Part shown: positions 5,596 through 25,330 of the stretch, in pieces
How the letters are laid out: each line of letters begins with the position of its first letter
Numbering within the stretch: position 1 is the stretch's first letter
Assembly (NCBI GenBank): GCA_014800815.1
Contig: JAAVFI010000003.1
Coordinates: 1 to 37,625 of the forward strand
Length of the DNA: 37,625 nt
Source: Bacteroidales bacterium
Lineage (GTDB): Bacteria; Bacteroidota; Bacteroidia; Bacteroidales; Muribaculaceae
Direction of reading: 5' to 3'
Translations under genes and position numbers: made by a program
Notes under the pieces: generated by a model
Databases searched by the model: none
The model's input: the letters and a program-made list of their open reading frames with translations, nothing else
Told to the model about the DNA's origin: nothing

Positions 5596-5622
5596 TTATC
5601 TGTGATTGTGATTGGTTGGTTC

Positions 5623-6873
5623 TTAATCGATGATTGTGATGATAACCGAACGGCTCAGCTGAGGATCATCGAAGTACATATTGTCTACACCACCTTTGTC
5701 GTCGAGTTCGAGCTGCGATGCGGGCACACCATACTGCTCGGTGAGTACCTTGAAGACATTCTCCGAGCGGTGCTTGGCAAGCCACTCGTTGCGCTGAACG
5801 CTACCGGTGTACTTATCGGCATAGCCGGTGACAAGATAGCGGGTGTCGGGAGTAGCCTTCATCATCTCAGCCACAACCTTGAGATTGACAAGTTCGCGGT
5901 TTACAACGTCTACCTTGTCGATGACGAAGTTGACGAGATAGGGGAAGGTGACTACTTCTTTGAGAATCTCGGCAATATTTACATTCTGAGTCTCTTCCTT
6001 GACCGGCATATTGCGCAGACGATTGATTTCCTCGTTCAGCTCCATTATCTTGGTCTGATTATACTGATTGTAGATAGTGGTGCGCTGCGAAGCACGGTCC
6101 CAGCCGCGACGCTTGAAGTAGTATGTAACGCCGACGTTAAACGACACGTTCATATCAATAAGATTCTCCTTGCCTTCTTTGGCGTGAGTATTGTCGCTGT
6201 AGCCGTCGTAGGTGGTATCATAGAGAAGTCCGCGCAGCTTAAAGTCGAGCGACCACGCCTTGGCGGGAGTGAAGAAGTGACTGTACTGAAACTCGACGTG
6301 CGCGCTGAGTTCGTTGGCCGAGCCATATGAGAGTCCGAGGTGGTGAGTGATACCGAGGCCGGCGCCGGCAATGAACTGATTCATGAGGCGTGGAGAATTA
6401 TCGTTCTCGTAGCCGTAGATGAGGCGCGTTACGTTGAATTTGGCACTTACCGAAATATCCCACCACTTGATGTTTTCGAGCCAGTAGCGGTTGCCGTTCT
6501 TATCGTAGAGTTCGGGACTCTCGCGTGTAAATACACCTGTGTCCACACTCTTGTGGCTCTTGGAGCGGAAGCCGGTATAGTTTACTTCAACACCGAAGCC
6601 GGGGAGGAACCACTTACCCACACCAATGTTGAACTGAGGTGTGAGTCTGTTGCTGAAACTGCCGGTGTGCTTGTCGCCAAAGAAGGCGTTTATACCGCCG
6701 TCGACAGTCGCATACCAGTTATTTCTGAATGGGTTCGACAGCACCTGGTGTGGGTTTGCCGATACTTCGTATGTCTCAACCATAGTGAAGGTCGAGTCGG
6801 GCTCGTTCTGAGCGACTGCCGAAGAAGCAGCTGTCACAGCCGCCGCAGTCAGTAATATCTTTGAATACTTCAT
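5623..6873 (-). CDS. OmpA-family outer membrane protein (416 aa)
   Basis: Signal peptide MKYSKILLTAAAVTAASSAVA, then a beta-barrel-like region (about residues 45-265) with alternating aromatic strands, a short charged helical linker around KIMELNEEINRLRNMP, and a C-terminal OmpA-like peptidoglycan-binding domain (about 305-416). The latter shows the expected order: VNFVIDKVDVVN, then YLVTGYADKYTGS, then NEWLAKHRSENVFKVL, then the GV..SQLE tail. It probably anchors the outer membrane to the cell wall. It is 3 bp after the fimbrillin/PI-PLC-like gene and 27 bp before the giant lipoprotein, so the three are likely a co-made envelope set. It resembles OmpA proteins that partner Bacteroidales fimbrial or adhesin components; the specific partner is inference. 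Confidence 0.9.
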   Translation of the reverse strand: MKYSKILLTAAAVTAASSAVAQNEPDSTFTMVETYEVSANPHQVLSNPFRNNWYATVDGGINAFFGDKHTGSFSNRLTPQFNIGVGKWFLPGFGVEVNYTGFRSKSHKSVDTGVFTRESPELYDKNGNRYWLENIKWWDISVSAKFNVTRLIYGYENDNSPRLMNQFIAGAGLGITHHLGLSYGSANELSAHVEFQYSHFFTPAKAWSLDFKLRGLLYDTTYDGYSDNTHAKEGKENLIDMNVSFNVGVTYYFKRRGWDRASQRTTIYNQYNQTKIMELNEEINRLRNMPVKEETQNVNIAEILKEVVTFPYLVNFVIDKVDVVNRELVNLKVVAEMMKATPDTRYLVTGYADKYTGSVQRNEWLAKHRSENVFKVLTEQYGVPASQLELDDKGGVDNMYFDDPQLSRSVIITIID

Positions 6874-6876
6874 TGC

Positions 6877-8784: not shown

Positions 8785-8818
8785 TTGTTTGTGAAAATGA
8801 TTGATTGCTATAATATTT

Positions 8819-8998: not shown

Positions 8999-9007
8999 TT
9001 GTATGGT

Positions 9008-11413: not shown

Positions 11414-11437
11414 TATATATAGTTATATATCTGCTTA

Positions 11438-12232
11438 TTATCTACGGAATGCCCAGATTGCCGATACTCCGAGCGATGCAATGCTTACGATAAACGATGA
11501 AATCTGCCAGCCGCGGTTTTCGCGCTCTTTACTCTTGTACTTGGGCTCGACATACACTATATCGTTGGGCTTGAGATAGTAGAAGGGAGAATCGAACATC
11601 TCGCGGCTCGTGAGGTCGTGCTCGAGTACCATGCGTTTGCCGTCGACTTCGCGTATCACTTTCACATTGGTAGTCTTGCCGTTGGGAAGCACATCGCCGG
11701 CATTGGCTATTGCTTCGAGGAGAGTCACGCGGTCGCCGTCGACAGAGAATGTGCCGTTTTTGGCCACGGCACCCATTACGGTGTACTTGAAGTTGAGCAA
11801 GTCGACCGATACTTGCGGGTCTTTAATATAGTCGCCGTCGATAATCTTCTCACGTATTATATCGGCTATCTGTGTGAGGCGGAAGCCGGCTACATGTATC
11901 TTGCCGAGGACGGGGAATGTAATATCGCCGCGCTTGTCTACACGGTAGCCGGTTTCGGGTGTCACTCCCGAGCCGGTAGTGGATACGTCGCCTTCGGCAT
12001 TGATGCTCACGGCGCTGTTGCGCACATTGAAGGGCACGGCGAGTTCGGGCTTGCGACAGCTCACCGTAATGGAAAGAAGGTCGTTGGCCTTGACGATAGT
12101 TTCGTTGTCGGCCTTAAACGTATAGGCCTGTGTTGGTTCCATGTCGGCAAGATAAACGATGTCCTTGCTCTGCTTGCATGAACTGAGTAGCATCAAGGCT
12201 GCAAGTATGATGTATAATGTCGGTCTTAACAT
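11438..12232 (-). CDS. Wza-type polysaccharide export outer-membrane lipoprotein (264 aa)
   Basis: Forms the outer-membrane channel for export of the glycan made by this operon. Signal peptide with lipobox LLSSC (Cys19). Residues about 40-125 are the Poly_export domain (ANDLLSITVSCRKPELA, then GYRVDKRGDITFPVLGKIHV, then IREKIIDGDYIKDPQVSVDL), followed by one SLBB/beta-grasp domain (about 130-230: VMGAVAKNGTFSVDGDRVTL, then LKPNDIVYVEP). The last about 20 residues (SFIVSIASLGVSAIWAF) form a hydrophobic helix, as in other short Bacteroidetes Wza homologs. It lies between the HprK-like kinase (6 bp gap) and its Wzc-type partner. Confidence 0.94.
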   Translation of the reverse strand: MLRPTLYIILAALMLLSSCKQSKDIVYLADMEPTQAYTFKADNETIVKANDLLSITVSCRKPELAVPFNVRNSAVSINAEGDVSTTGSGVTPETGYRVDKRGDITFPVLGKIHVAGFRLTQIADIIREKIIDGDYIKDPQVSVDLLNFKYTVMGAVAKNGTFSVDGDRVTLLEAIANAGDVLPNGKTTNVKVIREVDGKRMVLEHDLTSREMFDSPFYYLKPNDIVYVEPKYKSKERENRGWQISSFIVSIASLGVSAIWAFRR

Positions 12233-12238
12233 ATCGGA

Positions 12239-13117
12239 TTACTTCGAAAGTCTTGTAAGATTGGTTTTACATATCAGGGCTGCTTCGGTGTCGGGTCGGC
12301 ACTCGAAGTAGCCGACGGGCACTGTCTCGCAGATTGCTATGAGATTGGAGTGCAGCTGTTCGAGCAGAGCGCTGTCAGCCTTGACAGCCGAGCACGAGGG
12401 GAGAATGGTGACGAATGCCTGCACTTGGTCAAGATGATGATACCTGTTGGCAGGCGACTGGCTGAGCCGGACAATTCCTCCCAACGGGTGGCACTCGTTC
12501 TTATAGCACGGTGTCTTGCCCGACCAAGGCGAGCCGCAGACCACGGCATTGTTTTCACCGACGACCACAACGGGGTTATCGTCGTTAAGGAGCTCCGAGC
12601 CCTCGAAGGCGTTGAGCCACAGCGAAGCATGCGTGCTCTTACCCGTTCCGCTCTTGCCGATGAACAGTTGAGCTTTACCGCCGAGGACGACCGCAGATGC
12701 GTGTAGCGACACTCCGCCGTGCGGTATAATTGCCTGTGAGAAGAGTATATGAAGCATCGAGGAGAGAGCCGCAGAGCTGCAATTGTTGCCTATAAAGGCT
12801 TCGGCACGGGTAAAACGGGTGTCGAAGGTGGCATAGTGGAGAGGGCCGCAGGCATATCGCACCGTGAGCAGATAGCCTTCGGTAATACGGTATAACCGGC
12901 AGTAGCCGAACTCGTTTACACTCTCCTCAAGCACATTCAGCCCCTGCACGTCTGGCTCGGCATCGAGGGCGCTGACGGTAACAGTCAACAGAGGCTCGCT
13001 ATGCGAATCGGCACTCGCAAAAGGAGCGAACGAAGGCAGCAGACTTTCTGCCGACATTCCTGCGGGGAAGTCAACAGCGATATCAAAACCGGCGATTGTG
13101 TATGAGCTGCGTTTCAT
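12239..13117 (-). CDS. HprK-related serine kinase-like protein (292 aa)
   Basis: P-loop kinase of the HPr-kinase superfamily, but not the sugar-uptake regulator itself. Walker A is FIGKSGTGKSTHASLWL (about residues 150-166), followed by LLNDDNPVVVV as the Walker B-like strand and CGSPWSGKTPCYKNECHPLGGIV, which matches the loop conserved in HprK-related proteins. The N-terminal about 130 residues are a poorly conserved domain. Similar kinases occur with PqqD-like proteins in 'HprK-related' systems of exopolysaccharide loci and as tailoring kinases in some lasso-peptide clusters. Its ATG overlaps the stop of the nucleotidyltransferase gene by 4 bp. It probably phosphorylates a peptide, protein or glycan intermediate; the substrate is unknown. 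Confidence 0.85.
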   Translation of the reverse strand: MKRSSYTIAGFDIAVDFPAGMSAESLLPSFAPFASADSHSEPLLTVTVSALDAEPDVQGLNVLEESVNEFGYCRLYRITEGYLLTVRYACGPLHYATFDTRFTRAEAFIGNNCSSAALSSMLHILFSQAIIPHGGVSLHASAVVLGGKAQLFIGKSGTGKSTHASLWLNAFEGSELLNDDNPVVVVGENNAVVCGSPWSGKTPCYKNECHPLGGIVRLSQSPANRYHHLDQVQAFVTILPSCSAVKADSALLEQLHSNLIAICETVPVGYFECRPDTEAALICKTNLTRLSK

Positions 13118-14184
13118 CTGTTGAGTGAGCGGGTGATAAGTTGCCAGAGCGTTGAAGCCGAGTGGCGAGGAGTGTACGGAAGGAGACGTAAGTTGTTGCG
13201 AAGCACTACATTGAATGTATCGGAAAGCTTGCTTCCTTTGCGGGTATGGAGCCCGAAGTTGCCGCCACCGAACACTATGCTTGCCAGGGGGCGCGAGTCG
13301 ATGTGGCTGAAACTACCCGGGACTAAGTCGGCCGTCATTCCCAGGTAGTCGCACATGAACGAATGGAGCAGATTGTTCCAGCGTGTCAGACCCGCATCTT
13401 TATACAGGTGCTGCAGTGCCGATATTTCTTCCGGCATACCTTGTATTTTGCTGTATGCTACCGCAAGATCACATATCTGTCGCAATCCTATGCCGAAGCA
13501 AAGTGCATGGCGCAGTATATGCAGGTTGAGCATGAGGATGTTGACACTCGGCACCGGCATCATGGCGCTTACAGATTGCGAACCTGCGATTGCGTAAGGT
13601 TCGAAACAGTCGCTACCGAGACCGTCAATGAGGTGGCGCACACGTCGCGGCTGCATGTCGAACATCGAGGGATGTATCTCTACGATTTCGCCATTGCAGC
13701 GTGTGAGATAACTGCCGTCCGGCATAAGCTCGACCTTGCCGCAAGACTCGCTCAGGAGCTCAACACATCGGCTCATATCTCCCGTACGGGGGAAATAGAG
13801 GTCTATGTCGCCACACTCACGCATCAGCGGCTCGGGATAATACTGTGCCACAGTCTGACCCTTGAGCACCACGGGGATGATTCCTGCTGCATTGAGCCTG
13901 CTGCAGACCGACGCCAACGCGCTGTTCATCTCGCGGTTGCGGCGCTCTATCATGGCAGCGTTTGCACCCCAACGGGCCAGCATACCCATGTCGGGCATCA
14001 GTGTGTCGGGAACGGCTGAAAGCCCCTCGAAGCACACACCGGCAACGGTCTGACGGACAGCGAGGTCGAACACTGCCGGCCACTCGTCGCGGCCAAGATG
14101 CCCGAAATCACAGGCCGTGTCGCCCCACAGTGCTGCCGAGAGCAGCCTGCTCAGAGTAACTGTTGCCACCGAATCTGCCTTCAT
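13114..14184 (-). CDS. Nucleotidyltransferase-family protein (NTP_transf_5-like, 356 aa)
   Basis: The middle section has the family's pattern: GIIPVVLKGQTVAQYYPEP followed by RECGDIDLYFP, where Asp-Ile-Asp is the metal-binding pair of a polymerase-beta-like nucleotidyltransferase. The C-terminal half is helical (SVNILMLNLHILRHALCFGIGLRQICDLAV), typical of PF14907-type proteins. These are uncharacterised but repeatedly found beside PqqD-like and HprK-like genes in polysaccharide and peptide-modification loci. It overlaps both neighbours by 4 bp (PqqD-like upstream, kinase downstream), implying stoichiometric co-translation. Activity (nucleotide transfer to a peptide, protein or sugar) is inferred from fold motifs only. 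Confidence 0.85.
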   Translation of the reverse strand: MKADSVATVTLSRLLSAALWGDTACDFGHLGRDEWPAVFDLAVRQTVAGVCFEGLSAVPDTLMPDMGMLARWGANAAMIERRNREMNSALASVCSRLNAAGIIPVVLKGQTVAQYYPEPLMRECGDIDLYFPRTGDMSRCVELLSESCGKVELMPDGSYLTRCNGEIVEIHPSMFDMQPRRVRHLIDGLGSDCFEPYAIAGSQSVSAMMPVPSVNILMLNLHILRHALCFGIGLRQICDLAVAYSKIQGMPEEISALQHLYKDAGLTRWNNLLHSFMCDYLGMTADLVPGSFSHIDSRPLASIVFGGGNFGLHTRKGSKLSDTFNVVLRNNLRLLPYTPRHSASTLWQLITRSLNR

Positions 14185-14444
14185 TCAATCAGGCCCATGC
14201 TTTTCCACTGCCCGAGTTGAGCTTCAACATCGGCACGCGCCGTATCGCGGTCTACATCATACTCTGCTACAAGTGCGTCGGCAAGAGCCCGGGCATCAGT
14301 CGCGTCGTCGAGATGCTGCCAGATGAAGGCTGCCGTGGCATTCATGCTGTAGACGTCGGCGAAATTGAGAGCCTTACCCTCGACAGAAACGAGCAGATAT
14401 CTGTTGCCGCACTTCCGGAGTGAAATATTGCACGTTTTCTTCAC
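14181..14444 (-). CDS. PqqD-like peptide-recognition protein (87 aa)
   Basis: A standalone winged-helix PqqD-type protein. It shows the strand pair NRYLLVSVEGKALNFADVYSMN, then NATAAFIWQHLDDATDARALADALVAEYDVD, then a final helix with DVEAQLGQWKSMGLIE. PqqD-like domains bind leader peptides and present them to modifying enzymes. The start is GTG at 14444, 3 bp after the stop of the glycosyl-phosphate transferase; no better ATG fits the family length. It overlaps the nucleotidyltransferase gene by 4 bp. This is the strongest sign in the operon that a ribosomally made peptide or protein is modified here. No radical-SAM partner or lasso cyclase is present in the window. Confidence 0.88.
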   Translation of the reverse strand: MKKTCNISLRKCGNRYLLVSVEGKALNFADVYSMNATAAFIWQHLDDATDARALADALVAEYDVDRDTARADVEAQLGQWKSMGLIE

Positions 14445-14447
14445 TTC

Positions 14448-15119
14448 TCAGAATTGTTTGCCCGAGAGGATTGAGTAGACGGTAAGCCACACAATCTTGA
14501 TATCGGTCCAGAGGTTGTGCTTGTTTAGATATTCGAGGTCCATTTCAAGACGTGTGAGCATCTTCTCCATAGTATCGGTGTAGCCGTTATACAAGGTCGC
14601 CATAGAAAATACGCCGGGACGCATCTTATAGAGCTGACTGTAGCGGGAGTCATGCTCCATGATTTTGTCTATGAAGTATTTACGCTCGGGGCGATATCCT
14701 ACAAAACTCATGTCGCCCTTGACAACGTTCCACAACTGGGGGAGTTCGTCGAGATGATGCGAGCGGATAAAGGAGCCGATGCGTGTGAGGCGATCATCTT
14801 CCTCCTTGCAGAGCAGAGGAGTACCGTCCGACTCCGAGGTCTGCTTCATGGAGCGGAATTTATAGAGTGTGAACGGATGACCGTGGTATCCGATGCGTTG
14901 CTGCTTGAAAATGACGCTGCCGCCGTCTTCGCGTTTTATGGCAGCGTAAATAAGCAGGTACAGTGGCGAAAACACGACCATTCCAGTCATCGCGAGAATC
15001 ACATCGAAGATGCGCTTCAGGGTCGCGTTCAGCTTGATTGGTGATTGGTTGGTGTCGTCGCATATCAGCCCATGCTCTATGGATTGACTGCTGAACACCA
15101 TCTTTAGCATTTCTTCCAT
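14448..15119 (-). CDS. Polyprenyl-phosphate phosphoglycosyl transferase (initiating sugar transferase, 223 aa)
   Basis: Transfers the first sugar-1-phosphate to undecaprenyl phosphate, starting the repeat unit on the cytoplasmic face. It is the short monotopic type: an N-terminal re-entrant helix (RIFDVILAMTGMVVFSPLYL, about residues 36-55) preceded by a short cytoplasmic segment, then KQQRIG, LYKFRSM, RIGSFIRSHHLDELPQLWNV and GDMSFVGYRPE, all hallmark motifs of the bacterial sugar transferase family. The acceptor sugar cannot be told from sequence. ATG at 15119; the 83-bp gap to the upstream glycosyltransferase is one of the longer intergenic spaces in the operon, but no consensus promoter is seen in it. 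Confidence 0.95.
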   Translation of the reverse strand: MEEMLKMVFSSQSIEHGLICDDTNQSPIKLNATLKRIFDVILAMTGMVVFSPLYLLIYAAIKREDGGSVIFKQQRIGYHGHPFTLYKFRSMKQTSESDGTPLLCKEEDDRLTRIGSFIRSHHLDELPQLWNVVKGDMSFVGYRPERKYFIDKIMEHDSRYSQLYKMRPGVFSMATLYNGYTDTMEKMLTRLEMDLEYLNKHNLWTDIKIVWLTVYSILSGKQF

Positions 15120-15202: not shown

Positions 15203-16324
15203 TCAGTACCTATTGTTCAATACGTTTTCATAAATTGTCTTACAGTCGTCAATCATCTTTGACTTTGTAAACATCTGTTCATAACGATTGCGGGCACGCT
15301 CGCAGAAAGCATTGTAGGTGCTTGTATCGGTGCATATATCCAGAATAGCGCCTGCGAGCGCCTTCGGGTCATCTGTACTTACATTAAGGCCGGATACGCC
15401 GTGAGCATTCACCCAGGGCACACCCGAGCCGGGTATTTTTGTGGCGACCACAGGTCGGCCTGCCGCCATAGCCTCAATCTGGACTATCGCGAAGGCTTCG
15501 GTCTTGAATACGCTGCTGAGGCAGAATACGGTGCAGGCTTCGAAATAGGCGCCCAGCTCTTCTCCGGAGATGAAGCCGGGGAGATACACGCGGTCGGAAA
15601 GTCCGAGACGGTTCACCTGCTCCTCAAGTTCACCTCTGAGCGGCCCGTCGCCTCCTATTACTATCGCATAATCATCGGGGAGCATCGTGGCGGCCTCTAT
15701 CAGATTGCGAAATCCTTTGTAGGATACGAGGCGGCCGAGCGAGAACACTATCTTGCGTCTACCGTACCGATCCTTAATTCTTTGGACAGCTTCCGTGGTG
15801 GCCTTCATACGGTCTACACCTATAGGTAGTGCCACGCATTTATGTGCTTCTTGCTTCAGTGACGGACTTCCGGCGAGATATACAGGAGAGGTGCCGATGA
15901 TAAGATTGGCGCGCTTTATGAGCCAGCGCTGGAGCGGACCGTATAGCCTGAGCATCTTACGCTGACGCAGGATATCGCTGTGCCAGTGCAGTATCACTTT
16001 GCCACGATAGCCCGACAGCTTCAATGTCAGAGCCGCCATAGGGTCGGGGTGGTGCACATGTATTATGTCATAGTCGCTGCACCGCTTCCTCAACTCGGAT
16101 ATCATAGAGGGCGAAATCATGGTGGAGGCTACTTTGACCCATGTACGGCAACCTATGATATTACCACGAGGCGTGAGGTTGATTTTACGTCCTTTCCCGT
16201 CGATGAGCGCACACAACATGTCGCAGTCGACACCTTGCTTTGAGAGCCCTTCGGTGAGGTCGTACATCACTTTCTCCACACCTCCGCGTATAGGATAGAA
16301 TTTACCTAATTGGAGTACCTTCAT
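15203..16324 (-). CDS. Glycosyltransferase family 4 (373 aa)
   Basis: GT-B glycosyltransferase. The acceptor-side loop GKFYPIRGGVEKVMYDLTEG is at the N-terminus; the C-terminal donor-binding domain has FSLGRLVSYKGFRNLIEA, VIGGDGPLRGELEE and the E-x7-E motif EAFAIVQIE followed by AMAAGRPVVAT. The start at 16324 (MKVLQLGKFYP) fits the family exactly; an upstream ATG at 16438 would add 38 non-homologous residues inside the preceding gene. It follows the GT4 gene ending at 16348 by 23 bp. Donor and linkage unknown. Confidence 0.92.
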   Translation of the reverse strand: MKVLQLGKFYPIRGGVEKVMYDLTEGLSKQGVDCDMLCALIDGKGRKINLTPRGNIIGCRTWVKVASTMISPSMISELRKRCSDYDIIHVHHPDPMAALTLKLSGYRGKVILHWHSDILRQRKMLRLYGPLQRWLIKRANLIIGTSPVYLAGSPSLKQEAHKCVALPIGVDRMKATTEAVQRIKDRYGRRKIVFSLGRLVSYKGFRNLIEAATMLPDDYAIVIGGDGPLRGELEEQVNRLGLSDRVYLPGFISGEELGAYFEACTVFCLSSVFKTEAFAIVQIEAMAAGRPVVATKIPGSGVPWVNAHGVSGLNVSTDDPKALAGAILDICTDTSTYNAFCERARNRYEQMFTKSKMIDDCKTIYENVLNNRY

Positions 16325-16347
16325 TATAATTTGCGGCAAACCTTTCT

Positions 16348-17592
16348 TCAAGGTTTGCGTATTAGTTCGTCGTAGAGTTCTAAATAATTGTTGTATCGCT
16401 CTTCTTTTCTGAAATTGTCGAGCGCAAACCGGCGGCACGCATCGCTGAACGCGTATCTGCCTGCCGAGCCTATTTGCCTTACGGCGGAGAGCAGACCTTG
16501 CACATCGCCCTGCTCTACTATTGCTCCGCCCGTGGTGCCGTCTATGGATTCGACGCTACCGCCTGTTCGGTAAGTGACCACGGGAGTGCCACACGACATA
16601 GCCTCGAGATTGACGGTAGGATAATTATCCTGCCAAGTGGGATTTACAAATGCTGTCGCTTCAGAGTATAGCTCGGCGAGCTGCCCCACATCGGAGGTAC
16701 GTTCTATGGAGCGTATCGATGCGGGTAATCGGCGTGCTGTATCGCTATCAACACCGACAAGCACTATTACCTCATCGTCAGCGAGTAAGCGGGACATGGC
16801 AATGAAATCATCCAGTCCTTTTTCTCGACTCCAGATACTTGCCAGGCCAAGTATTATTTTTTTATCATCACTGATACCGAGAGCCTTGCGCACTGATGTA
16901 TTTCGTCGCGGGCTGAATACATCGGTATCTATACCATTGTGAATCACCTGCATGGGATAGTCCTTAAGGAACGAACTGCTAAGCTCGTCCTTCATCCACT
17001 CCGATACAGGAATGATAGTCATGCGGTCTACAGGCAGGGAAGTGAAGGCCCTGCGCTTGTCTATGAAATTGCGGCGCGAACGATCCACGAAAATACTCCG
17101 CGGGAAAGCTCCGTGTTGCGGGCAATCGTGACACTCTTCCTGCCAGCGGTTGCACCCTATATAACTGTAGTAGTAGCAATGACCGGTAAAGAGCCAGCAA
17201 TCGTGTACGGTCCATATCACTTTGGCACGGCTGTGGCTGAGGTAGTCGAAGAGCACGCGGTAGTCCAGGAAGTAACCGTGGATATTGTGAATATGCACTA
17301 TATCGGGGTCGATGTCACGCAGTTGCTCTACAAAGCGGCGCGTAGCCCGTGTCGAGGCAAGGCCATGACGGTCGGCCAGACGTGTGGCCAGCCCGTGAAG
17401 AGCGGTGCTGATACGATTGCCCACAGGAATGGTCTCGGTGGTGCAATTCATCATACCATCGCGACCTCGGCTGTAGGCGCAATAGTTTTTCCAACCGTTT
17501 TTCTCCGCCAAAGCTCCTATCTCCTGCATGATTCGGCCGGTGGAAGTATTTGTTCGCAGTACGGGATTTATCTGTACAATCTTACCTTTCAT
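16348..17592 (-). CDS. Glycosyltransferase family 4 (WcaC-like, 414 aa)
   Basis: GT-B enzyme of the subgroup common in Bacteroidales capsule loci, recognisable by MKGKIVQINPVLRTNTSTGR at the start and by the DIVHIHNIHGYFLDYRVLFDYL and VIWTVHDCWLFTGHCYYYSYIGC segments with a Cys-rich insert (CNRWQEECHDCPQHG). The C-terminal domain has LGLASIWSREKGLDDFIAM and DNYPTVNLEAMSCGTPVVTY. Its ATG overlaps the upstream GT4 stop by 4 bp. Sugar specificity unknown. Confidence 0.92.
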   Translation of the reverse strand: MKGKIVQINPVLRTNTSTGRIMQEIGALAEKNGWKNYCAYSRGRDGMMNCTTETIPVGNRISTALHGLATRLADRHGLASTRATRRFVEQLRDIDPDIVHIHNIHGYFLDYRVLFDYLSHSRAKVIWTVHDCWLFTGHCYYYSYIGCNRWQEECHDCPQHGAFPRSIFVDRSRRNFIDKRRAFTSLPVDRMTIIPVSEWMKDELSSSFLKDYPMQVIHNGIDTDVFSPRRNTSVRKALGISDDKKIILGLASIWSREKGLDDFIAMSRLLADDEVIVLVGVDSDTARRLPASIRSIERTSDVGQLAELYSEATAFVNPTWQDNYPTVNLEAMSCGTPVVTYRTGGSVESIDGTTGGAIVEQGDVQGLLSAVRQIGSAGRYAFSDACRRFALDNFRKEERYNNYLELYDELIRKP

Positions 17593-18722
17593 TCAAGAAC
17601 TTTCTCAAAGAGATTCATCCACATCTGCATTACTCTCTCTTCCGAGAAGCGGTCTGCGACACTCATGGCCCGCTTGCCAAGAGCGGCACGCCGGCTATCG
17701 TCGGACATGAGAGCCAATATGCTTTCGGCCATAGCGTCGCTATCGCCGTCGGACACTATCAGGCCGTCGGAGTTATGAGTTATTATGTCGCGCGGACCGC
17801 ATTTATAGTCAAAAGTCACCACCGGCAGCCCGGCGCTCATTGCCTCTATCATCACCATAGGGAAGCCCTCGTAGTGCGAGGTCATTACAAGCATGGAACT
17901 TGTGGCGTATTCGTCGGCGATTCTGTCGGTAGGGGCGTTGAGAGTAACGCTGTCGGTCAACCCGAGCTGACTTATACGGTCGGCAAGCATATCTTTCCAC
18001 TCGCCGCGTCCGAAAATATCAAGCGTCCAGCCTTCCGAACGCTTGTCGGACCGCACTTTGGCCCACACGTCGATAAGGCGGTCAAAACTTTTCTGATAGT
18101 CGAGGCGTCCGACTGCTATCACGCGCTTGGCCGTGCAATTGCTGTGCGCTGCCGAGATCAGTGCAGCGTTGGGTATCACCTCTATATTGGTGAGCGAGCC
18201 CCAATAGCCCCGGTCTTCGTCGGTAAGTACCACAAAGCGGTCGAACCGTCCGGCAAGCTTGCTGTCGGTACGGCTGCGGAGCCGGTCGAGAAGCCCTGTA
18301 AGACCCGTACGTCCATACTGCAGCCTGAAATAGCGGTTGAAGTGCAATTCGAGAATCTTTCGGCTACCGTCCTTTATCGACGGAATGAACGAAGATTCCG
18401 ACGGGTAGAGCGACACCGTGATATCGGGGCGCTCCTGCATGAGCAGTTCGGTAAGCCGACGGCGATGCAGACTGCGCTTTCTTATATAAGATGGTATGCG
18501 TTTGTACAGAGGTATAAACTTATCGTCGGTGTAATTTATACCGAGATCAACAAGACGTACTCCTTCAGGAAATTGGTAGAAGGGAGCACGACCGTTCTGA
18601 TCAGTTGTTACCACCACTATCTCCCAATCGCGGTTGCGACTCATCCACTCAATCTTATTGAGCAGAACACGCTCCATTCCTCCGGGATTGTAAAGCGAAC
18701 AATGACAGTAAACAATCTTCAT
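17589..18722 (-). CDS. Glycosyltransferase family 4 (377 aa)
   Basis: GT-B enzyme: N-terminal YCHCSLYNPGGMERVLLNKI acceptor loop, then VIAVGRLDYQKSFDRLIDVW, DIFGRGEWKDMLADRI and the E-x7-E motif EGFPMVMIE followed by AMSAGLPVVTFDYKCGPRD, the form typical of the subfamily that includes poly-glycosyl and N-acetylgalactosaminyl transferases in capsule loci. Overlaps both neighbours by 4 bp (Wzy-like gene upstream, GT4 downstream). Donor not predictable. Confidence 0.92.
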   Translation of the reverse strand: MKIVYCHCSLYNPGGMERVLLNKIEWMSRNRDWEIVVVTTDQNGRAPFYQFPEGVRLVDLGINYTDDKFIPLYKRIPSYIRKRSLHRRRLTELLMQERPDITVSLYPSESSFIPSIKDGSRKILELHFNRYFRLQYGRTGLTGLLDRLRSRTDSKLAGRFDRFVVLTDEDRGYWGSLTNIEVIPNAALISAAHSNCTAKRVIAVGRLDYQKSFDRLIDVWAKVRSDKRSEGWTLDIFGRGEWKDMLADRISQLGLTDSVTLNAPTDRIADEYATSSMLVMTSHYEGFPMVMIEAMSAGLPVVTFDYKCGPRDIITHNSDGLIVSDGDSDAMAESILALMSDDSRRAALGKRAMSVADRFSEERVMQMWMNLFEKVLE

Positions 18723-20041
18723 GCAGATATTACCTCCCGTTCAAATTCTTCTTCGCCCGGCATATAATCTTCATTTTCTTTACGCGATATGCACAGGAAA
18801 GGGGCAAATACTACAAACAAGTCACTTGATACTTTAAACCACTGTATCAGATTCAATACAAGGATAAGTATAAACATCCATTTGAATAATGGAAAGCGCC
18901 AACAACAGATCTTACATACCCTTATAAAATACATTATTAACAGGCAGAGACCGACAAGCCCGAAATAATAGATATAACGCAGGTAGCCGATATCGGTACC
19001 TTTGTAATAGCCATGATAGTCAGGCCCTACATAGAAGGGGTCGAAGGTAGCCAGCGTATCATCGTTAGGATTATTGAAAAAACCGTCGCCGATGAGCCAC
19101 GTCCTCAGATTATCGGGCCACACGACCATGCTCCTCAGAATATCGTTGGAGTGGGTCTGCCAGTGGCCGTGCTCGACAAGAGAGAAGAAGCCTTCGAAGC
19201 CGAAACGTATATTCTCACGTGCTCCGGCGTTGGTATTATACAATATTATACATACTATCACAGATATGAGTGATAACATAAACAGTTTGCCCATAATACC
19301 TCTTGATGAGACTTTCACAAACAGCGATCGGAATAGAAGATAGACTGAACCTAAAATCACACCGAATACCGTTGAGCGCGATATGAAGTCACCTATAATG
19401 GCTATTATAAATATGGCGGCTATATAGATATACTGATTAATCGAACTATCGTCTATACTCATCAATACTGTTGCCATAAGGATCACTGCCGCGAATCGAA
19501 AACCCGCCACATCGAGCGAGCAGCCGATTCCGTGAAGTCGCGATGATCCTGCGGTATTACCCATATATCCCTCTCCGCCGAAAGTTGCAGTATGCCAGTT
19601 CTCTGCTACCGGATTGCTATCAAAGAGCAATGCGAGAAAGCACTGCACCACACACACGGCTATCAGATAATTCACTGTAAGCGGTACTGATACCCCGCCA
19701 TGTACAGCTTTGATGAGCGTAATCACGGCGTATGCACCGCCAAGCCATACCCACATCGACATGAAGTAGGCCGCGAAGGTATTGTCGGCGGTATTATTTA
19801 ACGCCATACTCAGCATCGCTATAAGCGAAATACCGAAGGCATAGAGCGAAAGCACCAGAAAATCGCGGTCGATAGCCCCGTCGTGTTTCTTAATCAGACT
19901 GTAGGCGAGACACAGCAGCCCTACCACGGCAAGCAACATCTTTGAGTTGGCAGCCGGAAGCATCATCGGGACAAACGGAAAGAAATAGCAGCTCGTCACT
20001 ACCACAGTCAGCGGGACAAGTATGAGTTTCGAAGCTGTCAT
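18719..20041 (-). CDS. Wzy-like O-antigen/capsule polymerase, multi-pass membrane protein (440 aa)
   Basis: About ten to twelve hydrophobic helices (for example MLLAVVGLLCLAYSLI, AVITLIKAVHGG region, IYIAAIFIIAIIGDFISRST, YFGLVGLCLLIMYFI, MFILILVLNLIQWF) with one long extracytoplasmic loop between about residues 270 and 350 (GFEGFFSLVEHGHWQTHSND through DPFYVGPDYHGYYKGTDIGY). This layout, with low overall conservation, is that of Wzy polymerases and O-antigen ligases; position inside the operon among glycosyltransferases favours polymerase. It would join repeat units in the periplasm. Overlaps both neighbours by 4 bp. Confidence 0.85.
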   Translation of the reverse strand: MTASKLILVPLTVVVTSCYFFPFVPMMLPAANSKMLLAVVGLLCLAYSLIKKHDGAIDRDFLVLSLYAFGISLIAMLSMALNNTADNTFAAYFMSMWVWLGGAYAVITLIKAVHGGVSVPLTVNYLIAVCVVQCFLALLFDSNPVAENWHTATFGGEGYMGNTAGSSRLHGIGCSLDVAGFRFAAVILMATVLMSIDDSSINQYIYIAAIFIIAIIGDFISRSTVFGVILGSVYLLFRSLFVKVSSRGIMGKLFMLSLISVIVCIILYNTNAGARENIRFGFEGFFSLVEHGHWQTHSNDILRSMVVWPDNLRTWLIGDGFFNNPNDDTLATFDPFYVGPDYHGYYKGTDIGYLRYIYYFGLVGLCLLIMYFIRVCKICCWRFPLFKWMFILILVLNLIQWFKVSSDLFVVFAPFLCISRKENEDYMPGEEEFEREVISA

Positions 20042-21021
20042 CTGTATATCACTCCGTATATTATCTTCTGTATAATCATGTTATATGCCATATTGACCAC
20101 CGACAGGCCATGTGCGGCACTCCACTGAAGCAGGCGTGTCCGCAATGCCTGATAGCTGTTAGTCATTATGTATCTATCCGCCTCCTGATACCAATCTTTC
20201 CACAGCGCTATATCGCTGCGACGACCTGTGAACAGGAACGGCAGCTTGACATTCAGCTTGAACCAGGCCAGTTCGCGTTCGGAGACCTTGGCTCTAAGAG
20301 AGGCGCACACATCGGCAGTATTTGTTTGCAGTTGCTCGAGATGAGCAGCCGAATATTGCTTGGTGAGAGCGCCTGCATTTGTACGCACATAGTGGTAGTA
20401 CGCTTTCGGCAGATGCCTTACGCCGCGAGCAGCGGCAAGCAACTTTATGATAGTCATATCCTCACCCATGGCAAGTCCCTCAGGGAAAAGAATGCCCGAA
20501 TCGGTGTAGAGTCGGCGGGATATAAGTTTATTCCACACATTATATTTTATCTCACCCGCGAGAGTAAGGGTGAGCGCCTCGGCAGGAGATGTGGCTGAGG
20601 GTTCACGCATGAGCCGCGAGCCGGAGTCGAAGGTCAGATACCAGTCGGCCCACACAAAGTCGGACCCGGAGACTTCGGCAATAGCATACATGCTTTCGAG
20701 CATCCCGGCGTCGGCATAGTCGTCGCTGTCCCAGTGAAATATGTATTTACCCGTGGCGGCAGCCAGGCCCGTATTACGAGCGGCAGGCAGCCCTCGGTTC
20801 TCATCGTGGGTGAGTATCTTCACACTTCCCGAACGTTCGGGGTAGCGGCTCACCACTTCGCGTACAATACGCATACTGGAGTCGGGGGTGCAGTCGTCAA
20901 CGAAGATATACTCAACCTCATCGAGGGTCTGCGTCATCATCGACTCTACGGCACGTTCTGCAAAGCGTTCGACACCATAGACGGGAACTATTACCGATAC
21001 TTTTATTTTACTTTCCGCCAT
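20038..21021 (-). CDS. Glycosyltransferase family 2 (327 aa)
   Basis: GT-A enzyme: VSVIVPVYGVERFAERAVES, EYIFVDDCTPDSS, NRGLPAARNTGLAAATGKYI and the metal-binding HWDSDD near residues 95-100. The C-terminal third (YYHYVRTNAGALTKQYSAAH onward) is the helical extension common in Bacteroidales GT2 enzymes. Overlaps the upstream GT2 gene by 19 bp and the Wzy-like gene by 4 bp. Confidence 0.93.
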   Translation of the reverse strand: MAESKIKVSVIVPVYGVERFAERAVESMMTQTLDEVEYIFVDDCTPDSSMRIVREVVSRYPERSGSVKILTHDENRGLPAARNTGLAAATGKYIFHWDSDDYADAGMLESMYAIAEVSGSDFVWADWYLTFDSGSRLMREPSATSPAEALTLTLAGEIKYNVWNKLISRRLYTDSGILFPEGLAMGEDMTIIKLLAAARGVRHLPKAYYHYVRTNAGALTKQYSAAHLEQLQTNTADVCASLRAKVSERELAWFKLNVKLPFLFTGRRSDIALWKDWYQEADRYIMTNSYQALRTRLLQWSAAHGLSVVNMAYNMIIQKIIYGVIYR

Positions 21022-22031
21022 TTCTTCAATCGCTCCATCAATCGGTCTTTGACATACAGCAGACGCACTCCAAGGCGCGGCGCAGGATTGATGAAGATTT
21101 TATATTTGGTGTCGATATTCGCTTCAATGAGACGCCTATGCACTCGATCGTGAAGTTCATTGATATGCAGCCGATTGATAAGCTCTTTGCGTGAGACGTA
21201 AAAATGACTCTTAGCAAGTGTCTGCAGCATGTAATAATACATCATTACAGATAGTTTTCTGTAATATGCACTCTGAAGAGGCTCTGCTATCTTGGTGCTG
21301 CATTCATAAAGTAAGTCAGAAAGACGAGCCAGACACACAAGCTGATCCTCACGCAGAGAGAAGGCAAGTGAACCGGCACGATGGCGATACAGATACATCA
21401 CCTCATCAAGATAACCGCATCTCAATGGATTAATCAGAAGACGAGTAAAGAAATCAGTCTCTTCCATATACGTCAGTACTTCCTTAAAACGTAAGTCGCG
21501 GATCACGTCTTTGTCTATCAAATAAAGCCAACAGAACCACTCACCGTCGATAGCATACTTTATAAGTTCTAAGTTCGTCAGCACGCGATCGGTAAGTAGT
21601 GACTTATCTTTCGTGACTATACTCAGTGGTTTGAGATTTTCATCAACTTGACGACACTCAAATCGTACCAAGTCGAGCTCGTACTTTGTGGCATAGTCCA
21701 CGAGTTTTTTTATGCAGTCGATATCGCAAATCATATCGTCGCTGTCGCAAAACAGCAACCATCGACCCGAGGCAGCATCAATCCCGGCATTACGCGCCGA
21801 AGAAATACCTCCGTTTAGCTTATGTATGACAGAGACATTCCCGTAGCGCGATGCGTAAGCATCACACCTGGCACCTGAACTATCAGTGCTGCCGTCGTCT
21901 ACGAGAATTATTTCCAAGTCATCGTATGACTGACTCACAATAGATTGTACACATTCATCGAGCCACTTCTCCACATTGTATACCGGCACAATCACCGATA
22001 CCAATCTTTCAGTCCTTTGCCTATTAGTCAT
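21003..22031 (-). CDS. Glycosyltransferase family 2 (342 aa)
   Basis: GT-A enzyme: VSVIVPVYNVEKWLDECVQS, LEIILVDDGSTDSSG, NGGISSARNAGIDAASGRWL and the metal-binding FCDSDD. The C-terminal half is helical, ending in basic residues (RLLYVKDRLMERLKKWRKVK) that may touch the membrane. It is visibly more AT-rich than the genes downstream, as is the adjacent GT32, consistent with the exchangeable glycosyltransferase section of a capsule locus. 2 bp after the GT32 stop. Confidence 0.93.
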   Translation of the reverse strand: MTNRQRTERLVSVIVPVYNVEKWLDECVQSIVSQSYDDLEIILVDDGSTDSSGARCDAYASRYGNVSVIHKLNGGISSARNAGIDAASGRWLLFCDSDDMICDIDCIKKLVDYATKYELDLVRFECRQVDENLKPLSIVTKDKSLLTDRVLTNLELIKYAIDGEWFCWLYLIDKDVIRDLRFKEVLTYMEETDFFTRLLINPLRCGYLDEVMYLYRHRAGSLAFSLREDQLVCLARLSDLLYECSTKIAEPLQSAYYRKLSVMMYYYMLQTLAKSHFYVSRKELINRLHINELHDRVHRRLIEANIDTKYKIFINPAPRLGVRLLYVKDRLMERLKKWRKVK

Positions 22032-22033
22032 TA

Positions 22034-22792
22034 TTAAGACTTTGCTTTGTTGAGAACTTTATTGTAAAGCCGAGTACAGGTTTTGACAAAATTCGCTCCC
22101 ACTATCCTGGATATAGAGTTAATCAATCTAACTTTCAATGGCAGCCAACTTTCTGCATAATGGTGAATACTTCGCGTATTTTCAGTAATCTTCAGCTCTT
22201 TAGTATTGTAATCAATCGGGCAGAAATAATCTTTAGGATATATCCTTACCCCTTGTACTTCTTGTATCCCGGATATATTTTTGAGCCCTTTTTGAATCAA
22301 TAAATCTGTTGTGTATTGAACAACATTCTTGATATTAAAAGAGCCGTCAGAGTCTTGGAAATGTAGATTTTCGTACATGTCAAGAATGTCTTTATATAAT
22401 TCCATTCCGGCAGTGGCTCCAAGACCTAACCCGGGAGCTACTCCCAAAGAACACTCTGTCTCAGTAGGGCAAAATTCATTTTCACACCCCATGAATGCAC
22501 CCTCTCCGACAATATCCTTCATCGATTTTATGACTTCAACATCGGTGTCAAAATATAATCCACCATACCTATACAATACCCAAAATCGAGCATAGTCACT
22601 TACAAATGCATATTTTTTTGCCTTATATGCCTCAGCACAATACGGAATAATATTTACATCAAAATTTGATTCATTCCACTGTTTAATTTCATAATCAGGA
22701 AAATATTTTTTCCATGAGTCAATGCATTTCGTGGCTAATGCAGGAAGTTTTTTCCCTCCGAACCAACAATAATGTATAGTTTTTGGAATCAT
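22034..22792 (-). CDS. GT32-type glycosyltransferase (capsular sugar transferase with DxD, 252 aa)
   Basis: Begins MIPKTIHYCWFGGKKLP, the diagnostic opening of this family, then ALATKCIDSWKKYFPDYEIKQWNE, KKYAFVSDYARFWVLYRYGG and the metal-binding YFDTDVEV. Usual length is about 240-260 residues. An upstream in-frame TTG at 22810 would overlap the UpxY-like stop, but ATG 22792 gives the standard N-terminus. The gene is AT-rich compared with the rest of the operon, suggesting separate acquisition. It is the first enzyme gene after the antiterminator. Confidence 0.92.
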   Translation of the reverse strand: MIPKTIHYCWFGGKKLPALATKCIDSWKKYFPDYEIKQWNESNFDVNIIPYCAEAYKAKKYAFVSDYARFWVLYRYGGLYFDTDVEVIKSMKDIVGEGAFMGCENEFCPTETECSLGVAPGLGLGATAGMELYKDILDMYENLHFQDSDGSFNIKNVVQYTTDLLIQKGLKNISGIQEVQGVRIYPKDYFCPIDYNTKELKITENTRSIHHYAESWLPLKVRLINSISRIVGANFVKTCTRLYNKVLNKAKS

Positions 22793-22802
22793 GCTGATGT
22801 AC

Positions 22803-23834
22803 TCATTCAAAAGATTTGAGCGGCAACTCGGGGTAGCTTAGTCTGATACCCTCGAGCTCCACCTCAATATCAAGGTCCGGCCGGATTTCGGCAATTCCTA
22901 CGATAACTTCTTCAAAATCAGCTATAAGCTCTTTAAAGCCCACGCTGTGATAAGTGTAAAATTTAGAAGGCACAAATGCTCCGATATGCCTCAATACACT
23001 CAGACAGACGGCCGCAGCCTGCTCATAGTCGTGTCGGAAGCGGAGCGTACGGGCACGTCCGAGCCACGAATCGAGGCTGTTGGCGATTGCCATTGCATCT
23101 ATCTCGCAATCAGCGTGGAAAAACACTTTACCAACTTCTTTATCGATAGGAGTGAGAAGCTCTTCGTCTTCAACGTCGCTGTCTTCCGTAGCCTTCTTCT
23201 CTGCCACATACTCGCTTGCATTCACAAAGTTATCTTTGTGTATACCGCTTATAGCCACGCTGATATTGCCCATACTTGTCACCAGACAACGGTCGCGGTG
23301 CAGGCGCACCACATAACCCTCAAGCCCCTCAAGCGCACCCGACAATATTCGGATATAGGGCTTGCCGTCGGCGTAATACTCGATTGGCTTGACGAGGAAA
23401 CGAACTTTGCGTTCATCAAGTGACGACAGCCTCATAAAAGCCTGCATCTCCCTGTTGGTGATTTTTGCAGCCCTGCCGCTTGTATAGTCAACGGCAAGAT
23501 GCAGCCACGGTAGCCTTTCGGCAAGAAAGCGTTTGACCTCGGCAGGATTGCCATGAACAAATATGAGGCCTGAAATAGTGGGCCGGACCGATTTAGACAC
23601 TCCCGCTTCGTTGCGGACATACGTTACAGTCGAATGAACATAGGTCTCGAATCGTTCTTTGAGAATCTCCTCTACTCTCGCCAACTTCATCTTATGGGCG
23701 AAAAGAAACACCCACGGAGTAGCGGAATCACTTGACACCGGCGTATAACGATCCTTAGGAGAAAGCGAAGTATCCCCTAAGATTCTTTCGGCACTTGTGG
23801 CTACAGAGCAAGAACCTGAGCTATCCAGCGACAT
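22803..23834 (-). CDS. UpxY-type NusG-like transcription antiterminator with long C-terminal extension (343 aa)
   Basis: First gene of the polysaccharide operon. Residues about 38-130 match the NusG N-terminal domain of UpxY proteins (PWVFLFAHKMKLARVEEILK, TISGLIFVHGNPAEV); about 145-180 is a KOW-like segment (YIRILSGALEGLEGYVVRLHRDRCLVTSMG). UpxY proteins load on RNA polymerase in the 5' leader and prevent early termination of the capsule operon that encodes them. Here a further about 150 residues follow, starting with an acidic stretch (KKATEDSDVEDEELL) and then a helical domain; longer UpxY relatives with such a tail exist. No UpxZ-like inhibitor gene follows. ATG at 23834; the leader upstream carries the invertible promoter. 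Confidence 0.9.
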   Translation of the reverse strand: MSLDSSGSCSVATSAERILGDTSLSPKDRYTPVSSDSATPWVFLFAHKMKLARVEEILKERFETYVHSTVTYVRNEAGVSKSVRPTISGLIFVHGNPAEVKRFLAERLPWLHLAVDYTSGRAAKITNREMQAFMRLSSLDERKVRFLVKPIEYYADGKPYIRILSGALEGLEGYVVRLHRDRCLVTSMGNISVAISGIHKDNFVNASEYVAEKKATEDSDVEDEELLTPIDKEVGKVFFHADCEIDAMAIANSLDSWLGRARTLRFRHDYEQAAAVCLSVLRHIGAFVPSKFYTYHSVGFKELIADFEEVIVGIAEIRPDLDIEVELEGIRLSYPELPLKSFE

Positions 23835-23945
23835 TGATTCCAGCGACTGCTATGTTATTTGTTAACTGGCTGTTTACAAAGTTTATAATCACCATTTCAA
23901 ATAACTGTTTCAACGCATTACACGCTAATTTACGTTCTTTTTCCT

Positions 23946-23967
23946 ATCTCTAACTAAGAGATTTGGA
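23946..23967 (+). repeat. Left inverted repeat of the invertible element (22 bp)
   Basis: Exact reverse complement of 24127-24148. Contains the dyad ATCTCT-aacta-AGAGAT. Confidence 0.93.
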
Positions 23968-24084
23968 ATAGCAGTAACTTATTAAATGTCTATGTGTTAT
24001 ATCGGAGGAGGGGATTCCGTTTGCTAAAAATTAATAAATGAATTTATTTTAACAATCATACTGAAAAAATTTAACTCATATATA

Positions 24085-24116
24085 TTTGGCTGACTCAATT
24101 TATTTCCGTAATTTTG
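24085..24116 (+). promoter_or_regulatory. Bacteroidetes-type promoter inside the invertible element
   Basis: -33 box TTTG at 24085-24088 and -7 box TAATTTTG at 24109-24116, 20 bp apart, match the Bacteroides sigma-ABfr consensus (TTTG, 19-21 bp, TAnnTTTG). Expected start of RNA is about 24123. In this orientation transcription runs into the 3' end of the MFS gene in antisense. The minus strand of the enclosed segment has no TAnnTTTG match. Confidence 0.8.
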
Positions 24117-24126
24117 TAATCCTGAA

Positions 24127-24148
24127 TCCAAATCTCTTAGTTAGAGAT
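24127..24148 (-). repeat. Right inverted repeat of the invertible element (22 bp)
   Basis: Exact reverse complement of 23946-23967. Its dyad extends outward to 24126-24154 (12-bp arms, 5-nt centre), which the left copy does not share. Confidence 0.93.
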
Positions 24149-24181
24149 TTGGATAAAACATTCCCCCATTACGTAATACAC

Positions 24182-25330
24182 TCAACGGTTGCGCTCAAAG
24201 CGCAGATACAGTACAAGCAGAAGCACGCATCCCGTGCCGATAAAGGGCATGCCGACCAGAGAAACCGACCGCAGACCCCAGCCCGCCGAAAGCACAGCTC
24301 CACCAAGGAACGCAGCCACGGCATTGCCGGCGTTATACGCAATCTGGATACATGCGGCACCCAAAAATTCGCCACCTCGCGAATAGCCTACTATAGAGGA
24401 CTGCAACGGACTTCCCGAGCCGAAAAGTACTGCCGTACCGGCCATCATAAGTACGACCGCAGCCCACTGACAGGATCCGAACAAGAAGAAAAGAATCAGA
24501 ACGGGAAGCCCCGCCGCCTGAACGGAACATGCCACTGCGGCAGGCTTGAAACGGTCGCTGAGACGTCCGGCCATAAGATTACCGCCCACCATACCGGCTC
24601 CGGCGAGCACCATGAGCCACGAAAGGTCGTCCTGCGTAAATCCGCTCACCCGTGTCAACTGCGGGTCGATATAGCTGTACCAGCAGTACAGACCTATCTG
24701 ACCGAAAAGCACACCACCGAAAATAAGCCAGGGCGGCAGTGTCTTCAGAAAACGGAACTGAGATTTAAACCCATGATTTTCCAACGCAGGGAGCGCCGGA
24801 ATCCACATTCTCAGAGCTATAGCGGTCAACGTTCCGCAGATACCCACGATAAGAAAAGCCAGTCGCCAACTGAAATTATTGGTAAGGAACGTACCGGCGG
24901 GCACTCCCACGAGGTTGGCCACGGTCATGCCGGCAATCATATACGCCACTGCCCTCACCTGTTTGCCTTCCTCAGCAATCTTCTGTGCCACAATAGCTCC
25001 CACGCCGAAGAAGCATCCATGCGGCAGACCCGACACAAAACGGAATGCAAAGAGCGAACCAAAGCTCCACGCCGCGGCAGCACACAGGTTACCAACGGCT
25101 ATCAGCACGCCGAGTATCACCATTAACCGACGCAACGGCAGGTTGCGGGCAAACAGCAGCAGCACGGCACCTGCGCACACGCCAAGTGCATAAGCCGAAA
25201 TCAAATGTCCGGCCTTCGCCACATCTATTCCCAGCCCCTGTGCAATCTCGCTGAGAATACCCATCATAAGAAACTCGGCAATTCCTAACGAAAACGTACC
25301 CATTGCCAAGGCAAACAATCCTTTATTCAT
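24182..25330 (-). CDS. MFS transporter, AraJ/sugar-efflux-like (382 aa)
   Basis: Twelve-helix major facilitator of the drug/sugar-efflux DHA type. Starts MNKGLFALAMGTFSLGIAEF, the characteristic helix 1 motif (GTFSLGIAEFLMMG), followed by LISAYALGVCAGAVLL, SGLPHGCFFGVGAIVAQK, and a second half beginning ENHGFKSQFRFLKTLPPWLIFGGVLF. Length is normal for the family. Substrate unknown; AraJ-type members export sugars or drugs. It reads toward the invertible element, 33 bp beyond it, with its own likely promoter upstream. Confidence 0.9.
   Translation of the reverse strand: MNKGLFALAMGTFSLGIAEFLMMGILSEIAQGLGIDVAKAGHLISAYALGVCAGAVLLLFARNLPLRRLMVILGVLIAVGNLCAAAAWSFGSLFAFRFVSGLPHGCFFGVGAIVAQKIAEEGKQVRAVAYMIAGMTVANLVGVPAGTFLTNNFSWRLAFLIVGICGTLTAIALRMWIPALPALENHGFKSQFRFLKTLPPWLIFGGVLFGQIGLYCWYSYIDPQLTRVSGFTQDDLSWLMVLAGAGMVGGNLMAGRLSDRFKPAAVACSVQAAGLPVLILFFLFGSCQWAAVVLMMAGTAVLFGSGSPLQSSIVGYSRGGEFLGAACIQIAYNAGNAVAAFLGGAVLSAGWGLRSVSLVGMPFIGTGCVLLLVLYLRFERNR

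Follow-up and report, generated by a model that had tools for sequence, protein, structure and literature searches.

The locus analysed here raises the question of whether a short segment in front of a long surface-polysaccharide gene run is a promoter that can be inverted and, if so, which enzyme inverts it and how far its control extends. The window, i.e. the whole stretch of 37,625 bases that was analysed, contains a 22-bp inverted repeat without mismatch (23946-23967 and 24127-24148) that encloses 159 nt, just as an earlier note on this DNA had described, and a scan of the entire window revealed no other perfect inverted pair of 18-mers lying 600 bp or less apart. A search of the genome for other copies, which the note had proposed as a check, was run with 301 bp around the repeat (E 0.001) and returned none besides this pair; the exact 17-base site occurs twice in the genome, both times at this locus. 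The ATCTCT/AGAGAT dyad that had been seen inside the repeat is present, although its size was understated: the right site is a full 29-bp palindrome (24126-24154) with 12-bp arms and a 5-bp core, ATCCAAATCTCT-tagtt-AGAGATTTGGAT, and the left site keeps the inner half, its outer half being weak or degenerate. The elements of the putative switch and its right-hand neighbour are the following:

23946..23967, plus strand: left inverted repeat and putative recombination site, with the 17-mer ATCTCT-aacta-AGAGAT at 23946-23962
23968..24126, plus strand: predicted invertible segment, 159 bp, with a layout like that of other switches of the genus
24085..24088, plus strand: -33 element TTTG, from the sequence
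24109..24116, plus strand: -7 element TAATTTTG, 15 nt inward of the right 17-base site, directed away from the operon (OFF)
24126..24154, no strand: right putative recombination site, palindromic, containing the 22-bp repeat arm 24127-24148
24182..25330, minus strand: MFS transporter (PF07690)

The segment contains one full match to a Bacteroidetes-type promoter, located on the plus strand, where TTTG at 24085 is separated by a spacing of 20 from TAATTTTG at 24109. A second TAnnTTTG without a fitting -33 element lies deeper in the segment on the same strand, a small correction to the claim of exactly one consensus promoter. The opposite strand of the segment has no TAnnTTTG and the promoter, as assembled, is directed away from the operon and antisense into the 3' end of the MFS gene; the first two of these observations had been made before and both stand. 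Inverting the segment in silico moves the end of the -7 element to 23978 and leaves 144 bp between it and the UpxY-like gene's first base; a distance of about 140 bp had been given earlier. The most likely interpretation of this layout is that the promoter is invertible and has been assembled in its OFF state.

The repeat had been credited with a sequence of its own, which turned out not to be so. Of the 49 genomes examined in the genus, 31 contain the exact pattern ATCTCT-N5-AGAGAT, against one of 49 for the reversed-pattern control; in the family the pattern is present in 100 of 198 genomes, representing 22 of 30 genera (reversed control, 9/198). A stricter pattern with four extra bases was present in 10/49 genomes of the genus and, in a 393-genome sample of the order, in one of 387 genomes outside the family, as a single site; this pattern misses all five family relatives in the order sample besides the own genome, and the order-wide and family-wide patterns are not like for like, their counts not being directly comparable. 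A scan of named genomes for the full palindrome yielded 15 stretches, labelled as Porphyromonadaceae (six), Muribaculaceae (three), Bacteroidales (two), Bacteroides sp. (two), Clostridium sp. (one) and Rhodobacteraceae (one); going by these labels, the host family is presumably Muribaculaceae. Spread of the sites by phages was considered and rejected, the 26 stretches in viral contigs that exactly match a 16-base pattern being close to chance by our own estimate, made without a control.

The 75 exact sites in 57 retrieved loci of the genus gave 38 switches, with 164-299 bp between the site starts; the number of pairs is 39, because one site takes part in two of them. Nineteen of the 75 exact sites had no partner; for six of these a contig end is no more than 200 bp away, and the others may be chance matches. 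A TAnnTTTG near one of the sites and directed outward is present in 38 of 39 segments (37/38 switches) and ends 12-15 nt inside the site, whereas 300 mononucleotide shuffles, examined over the same test range of 5-25 nt inside the site, averaged 1.3 and never exceeded 6; the exception, switch L151, has no promoter at the usual place. The 20 distinct segment lengths favour a period of about 11 bp (P 0.006, jitter), too weak an indication of helical phasing to be relied on, given the related loci and the chosen period.

The two sites of each switch are further tied together by their cores. When partners were picked by the arms alone, at a distance of 100-350 bp, the core was the exact reverse complement in 17/17 cases with no arm mismatch, 14/14 with one, 8/13 with two and 0/16 with three, and none of the arm-chosen partners carried the core in direct orientation. 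The 38 switches display 28 different oriented cores (25 when core and complement are merged); thus the core varies among loci, yet within each of the 38 switches it is exactly reverse-complementary. Tyrosine recombinases require matching overlaps, and if strands are exchanged across a short overlap, cores matched within pairs are just what is needed. The stronger proposal that cores are strictly private to a switch was discarded, a shared core being found in 3 of 29 same-genome switch pairs, more often than in pairs between genomes (10 of 674).

The own genome encodes five proteins matching PF00589, four of them above the cut-off. One, located on contig C28 (29886-31097 of G000:C28, 404 aa) and hereafter called the C28 recombinase, possesses Arm-DNA-bind_5, Phage_int_SAM_5 and Phage_integrase domains, its best NCBIfam matches being the XerA, XerC and XerD models, far below cut-off; two of the other PF00589 proteins are presumably of the XerC/XerD type. 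It shares 54% identity over 417 aa with a switch-adjacent recombinase of genome G014 and 75% identity over a 146-aa fragment that adjoins a site in G019. Residues R253, K279, R352, H375 and Y384, which we take to be the catalytic ones, are invariant in seven aligned sequences, its own included. For nine distinct relatives of this enzyme, a matched pair of sites lies no more than 600 bp from the 3' end of the gene. In a set compiled blind to the sites, comprising the 30 best-matching recombinase loci, 26 of them with at least 300 bp of downstream sequence, a switch was found downstream in 6/26 and no matched pair nearby in 20/26. Across genomes, switch pairs occur in 23 of 37 with the recombinase and in 2 of 12 without it (Fisher P 0.008). 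There is no site within 600 bp of the C28 gene itself, which is unlinked to the switch on contig C3; its link to the switch in its own genome therefore rests on homology. About 57 bp separate the end of the C28 gene from that of a convergent neighbour, by its look presumably a UDP-sugar dehydrogenase gene. Taken together, these data indicate that the C28 tyrosine recombinase is likely the enzyme of the switch.

A fixed promoter or regulator-binding dyad, in which the repeats are repressor operators or parts of hairpins and nothing flips, would be in keeping with the palindromic build of each site, which may allow dimer binding or hairpin formation, and two such sites could serve looping. It would leave unexplained that cores varying from locus to locus match within pairs as reverse complements and never directly, that tyrosine recombinase genes adjoin nine switches, and that related switches have been assembled in both orientations. 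Among the 25 switches with a single clear target, the promoter points toward it in 10 (ON) and away from it in 15 (OFF), a mixture that a fixed promoter would not produce; the remaining 13 could not be scored, having a target on both sides or neither side or a promoter not in place. Eight switches, including that of the window, precede a UpxY-like gene (called by NCBIfam in L102, L103 and L160 and by alignment A3 in the others), two of them ON (L103 and L160) and six OFF (the window, L102, L104, L161, L167 and L169). Moreover, a contig end is found within 60 bp of 4 of the 75 exact sites, against 0.62 expected (P 0.004, from rounded contig counts), an excess that mixed orientations in a sample would cause. 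In G060, two contigs are broken at sites with complementary cores (G060:C46:39 and G060:C49:8998), as expected if the segment between them is present in both orientations. A non-flipping dyad is considered very improbable.

An Mpi/Fin-type serine invertase as the enzyme of the invertible promoter would suit the equal segment size, 183-186 bp in B. intestinalis, and the same class of target genes, as described in the available text of PMC8375218. This genome, which is rated 99.89% complete, has no match to the serine recombinase family PF00239, whereas 10 of 14 control genomes do, and the repeat contains neither ARACGTTCGTN, the Mpi motif, nor GTTCGTTTAA, the motifs given in the same available text (PMC8375218). 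With one mismatch allowed, ACGTTCGT has 24 matches in the window versus 30 expected by chance, the nearest (23932-23939) lying outside the repeat. With no serine invertase found and the motif missing, the Mpi-type enzyme was rejected as a candidate, and we regard this explanation as scarcely credible. Somewhat less remote, although still unlikely, is that a different tyrosine recombinase encoded in the genome serves the promoter, or that the promoter is now locked OFF for want of a recombinase acting on it, a reading which overlaps the preferred one in that both call the segment an invertible promoter. The number of PF00589 proteins and the lack of a site adjoining the C28 gene would fit it, as would G060 (99% complete), where a switch pair is present and the best relative of the C28 recombinase is only 30% identical; on account of this genome and of G010 (77% complete; switch present, best relative 27-28% identical), other recombinases may serve such sites. 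Against it, only the C28 protein is close to the site-adjacent recombinases of G014 and G019, and its gene is intact with the catalytic residues kept. The earlier view of an invertible promoter caught OFF is thus supported by the matched pairs, the fixed promoter place, the two orientations and the adjacent recombinases, and we consider it highly probable that the segment is flipped in trans by the C28 recombinase, a flipped state that would drive the operon at least from UpxY to Wzc, with UpxY presumably aiding the polymerase.

The operon lies to the left of the switch on the minus strand and starts at 23834. The operon and the genes that may extend it are listed here in the order of the window:

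1756..8784, minus strand: a co-directional trio encoding a 635-aa protein that matches no family, an OmpA-like protein and a 1279-aa surface-type protein, possible operon members
9008..12232, minus strand: Wza-like exporter and Wzc-like autokinase (Pfam, NCBIfam)
12239..14444, minus strand: PqqD, NTP_transf_5 nucleotidyltransferase and kinase-like gene (PF05402 E 7e-19, PF14907 E 5e-29)
14448..15119, minus strand: initiating sugar transferase Bac_transf (Pfam PF02397, E 5e-60)
15203..22810, minus strand: glycosyltransferases and polymerase-like membrane protein (Pfam for the first, 22034-22789; the remaining labels are presumed from the look of the sequences)
22803..23834, minus strand: UpxY-like antiterminator, first gene, with C-terminal extension (NCBIfam NF033644, residues 55-199; alignment A3)

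From UpxY (22803-23834) to Wzc (9008-11413) this co-directional run, which includes the glycosyltransferases and Wza, comprises 14 genes, and no intergenic gap in it exceeds 83 bp. A further full TTTG/TTG-TAnnTTTG match directed into this stretch was not found; no NCBIfam match was obtained for 18722-20041. The first gene product matches NF033644 with E 4e-14 and a score of 52.9 bits, where the curated cut-off is 100, and has no Pfam NusG or KOW match; it is very likely a divergent member of the UpxY family. Pfam detected no recombinase-like domain in it, and its structure model was poor (mean pLDDT 41.7). Its C-terminal extension (window 22803-23234) has about 140 residues with only an insignificant Pfam match; one guess is a fused UpxZ-like inhibitor. 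The PqqD, NTP_transf_5 and kinase-like genes (12239-14444) sit within a capsule operon; the kinase-like gene has no Pfam match, and weak NCBIfam matches (TIGR04249, TIGR04352) are far below cut-off.

The earlier note had extended the reach of the switch beyond the glycan genes to the PqqD/kinase cassette, adhesins and an ABC exporter. Control of the PqqD/nucleotidyltransferase/kinase genes is likely, owing to the tight 14-gene run and the lack of another full promoter facing it. For the putative adhesins and the ABC exporter such control is less certain: Wzc is separated from the three genes that follow by a 223-bp gap, although this gap has no TAnnTTTG on the operon strand. Beyond the gene for the 1279-aa protein, an exporter gene, presumably of the ABC type, runs off the contig.

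According to the preferred explanation, the C28 recombinase, acting in trans, would bind the ATCTCT/AGAGAT arms of both sites, and strand exchange across the matched 5-base core would flip the 159-bp segment. In the assembled orientation the promoter would fire away from the operon; once flipped, transcription would start about 140 bp before the UpxY-like gene and drive at least 14 tightly packed genes as far as Wzc, UpxY presumably helping RNA polymerase through the long operon.

Several relatives have, directly after the switch, a gene whose product unites a UpxY-like part with a recombinase-like one; the cases are L094 (genome G014), L151 (G045), L183 (G064) and L079:

L094:10072-11427, plus strand: UpxY/recombinase-like fusion (NF033644, Phage_int_SAM_5)
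L151:3438-4910, plus strand: UpxY/recombinase-like fusion (NF033644, Phage_int_SAM_5)
L183:1242-2630, minus strand: UpxY/recombinase-like fusion (alignment only)
L079:1883-3262, minus strand: UpxY/recombinase-like fusion (NF033644)

The C-termini match NF033644 with E values of 4e-13 (L151), 1e-14 (L094) and 2e-15 (L079), all below the curated cut-off, and the N-termini match Phage_int_SAM_5 in L094 (E 6e-10) and L151 (E 9e-12), with no match in L183. A profile of the fusion N-termini aligned with active recombinases with an hhalign probability of 96% (E 1.5e-9, 205 columns). The catalytic residues are not kept, as seen when the alignments were compared by eye, and the recombinase-like domain is, by this measure, catalytically dead. 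A query with one fusion matched in 32 of the 198 family genomes, where at least four matches cover the UpxY half only and one the recombinase-like half only; among 21 re-located genes, nine, including one that is a UpxY half without the other part, are directly preceded by a matched pair of sites, and L094 and L079 add two more cases. No relative of the fusion protein was found in viral contigs, and no UpxY-recombinase fusion is named in the parts of the literature available to us. As a tentative and, taken as a whole, rather doubtful proposal, the site could be read twice: an active recombinase would flip the promoter there, and in relatives carrying the fusion the dead domain would hold UpxY at the site, which in the ON state lies at the transcription start, so that polymerase would be loaded with UpxY in the ON state only. 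The matched core would then serve as an address, stopping most switches of the same genome from recombining with each other. Such tethering, if true, would explain how an operon-specific antiterminator finds its operon.

Switches of similar build precede other genes in many relatives, and one type of recombinase probably flips them. At L108 (6279-6473) the switch lies between two divergent capsule-export gene sets, with Wza/Wzc-like genes on both sides as labelled from their sequences, and a flip would activate one set while silencing the other. Another member of this switch family, at L101 (7153-7343), is found beside a DUF4007 gene, a large ATPase gene and a PAPS-reductase-like gene (genes 7332-14001), which may form a phase-variable locus for phage defence. 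A single site grammar, consisting of fixed arms, a locus-specific matched core and a fixed promoter place, would allow phase-variable loci to be listed from sequence, among them capsule loci, regulators and possible fimbria and defence loci, the last two labels being partly our assumption. The present analysis also singles out one candidate recombinase, in a family, presumably the Muribaculaceae, that is little studied genetically. Muribaculaceae are called dominant in the mouse gut in the available text of PMC6381624, and no report on invertible promoters or invertons in this family was found in the portion of the literature that could be consulted.

Among known systems, those closest to the window switch are found on two plasmids, pMMCAT (NZ_CP072253.1) and one of Phocaeicola massiliensis (OY726003.1), whose recombinases are, over the full length, 48 and 51% identical to the C28 recombinase, respectively. 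Both carry two tandem matched repeat pairs behind the recombinase, as their sequences reveal here, and both differ from the window in having this gene beside the switch, whereas in the window's genome it lies on another contig. The arms of the P. massiliensis sites are as in the window, with one mismatch per site, and the cores, TTTCA and CCGTA, differ between the pairs and are matched within each; the pMMCAT sites differ, being nearer to TTCTCT/AGAGAA, although like in the window UpxY, glycosyltransferase, Wza and Wzc genes lie beyond the repeat pairs. On the Bacteroidaceae plasmid loci L222 (4235-4773) and L221 (5354-5942), one recombinase is followed by a tandem of putative switches whose cores are matched separately in each.

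Of the published systems, seen here in the available parts of the papers, the Mpi-type capsule promoters of B. fragilis and B. intestinalis share logic, segment size and target genes with the window and differ in their serine recombinase and repeat (PMC8375218). The IP-ARG-1 to 3 classes, at resistance and glycan loci on mobile elements of human-gut Bacteroidales, have the invertase directly upstream, a TTTG/TAnnTTTG promoter and often upxY next, with two adjacent invertible regions in class 2; the invertase of pMMCAT is placed in the invertase tree of the same paper, whose available text does not describe matched cores (PMC8748976). In hCom2, UpxY genes are enriched as regulatable neighbours of inverton groups 126, 136 and 137, group 126 having a family of tyrosine-type invertases nearby in a non-regulatable orientation, and the string "Muribac" is absent from the main text (PMC11892184). 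In the available passages of PMC8748976, PMC4747536 and PMC11892184, the matched-core rule across many loci, drawn here from the data, is not described. In B. fragilis, a single tyrosine recombinase, Tsr19 (BF2766), flips a neighbouring and a distant promoter, IVp-I and IVp-II, controlling exopolysaccharide and surface proteins according to the available text (PMC4747536), a system likened to the window switch by its description and not by repeat or recombinase sequence.

The window feature fits the Bacteroidales Tsr type in its short inverted repeats, a segment below about 300 bp and one TTTG/TAnnTTTG promoter, and the own genome encodes a tyrosine recombinase with arm-binding, SAM-like and catalytic domains that is related to site-adjacent ones; a recombinase adjoining the switch, a usual and not a defining trait of the type since Tsr19 acts on a distant promoter as well (PMC4747536), is lacking here, the C28 gene and the switch being on different contigs. 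Given the likeness of pMMCAT, the P. massiliensis plasmid and the published Bacteroidales systems, the window switch, judged by its sequence, adds one more to a known type, its closest counterparts being the tyrosine-recombinase switches of Bacteroides such as those of pMMCAT.
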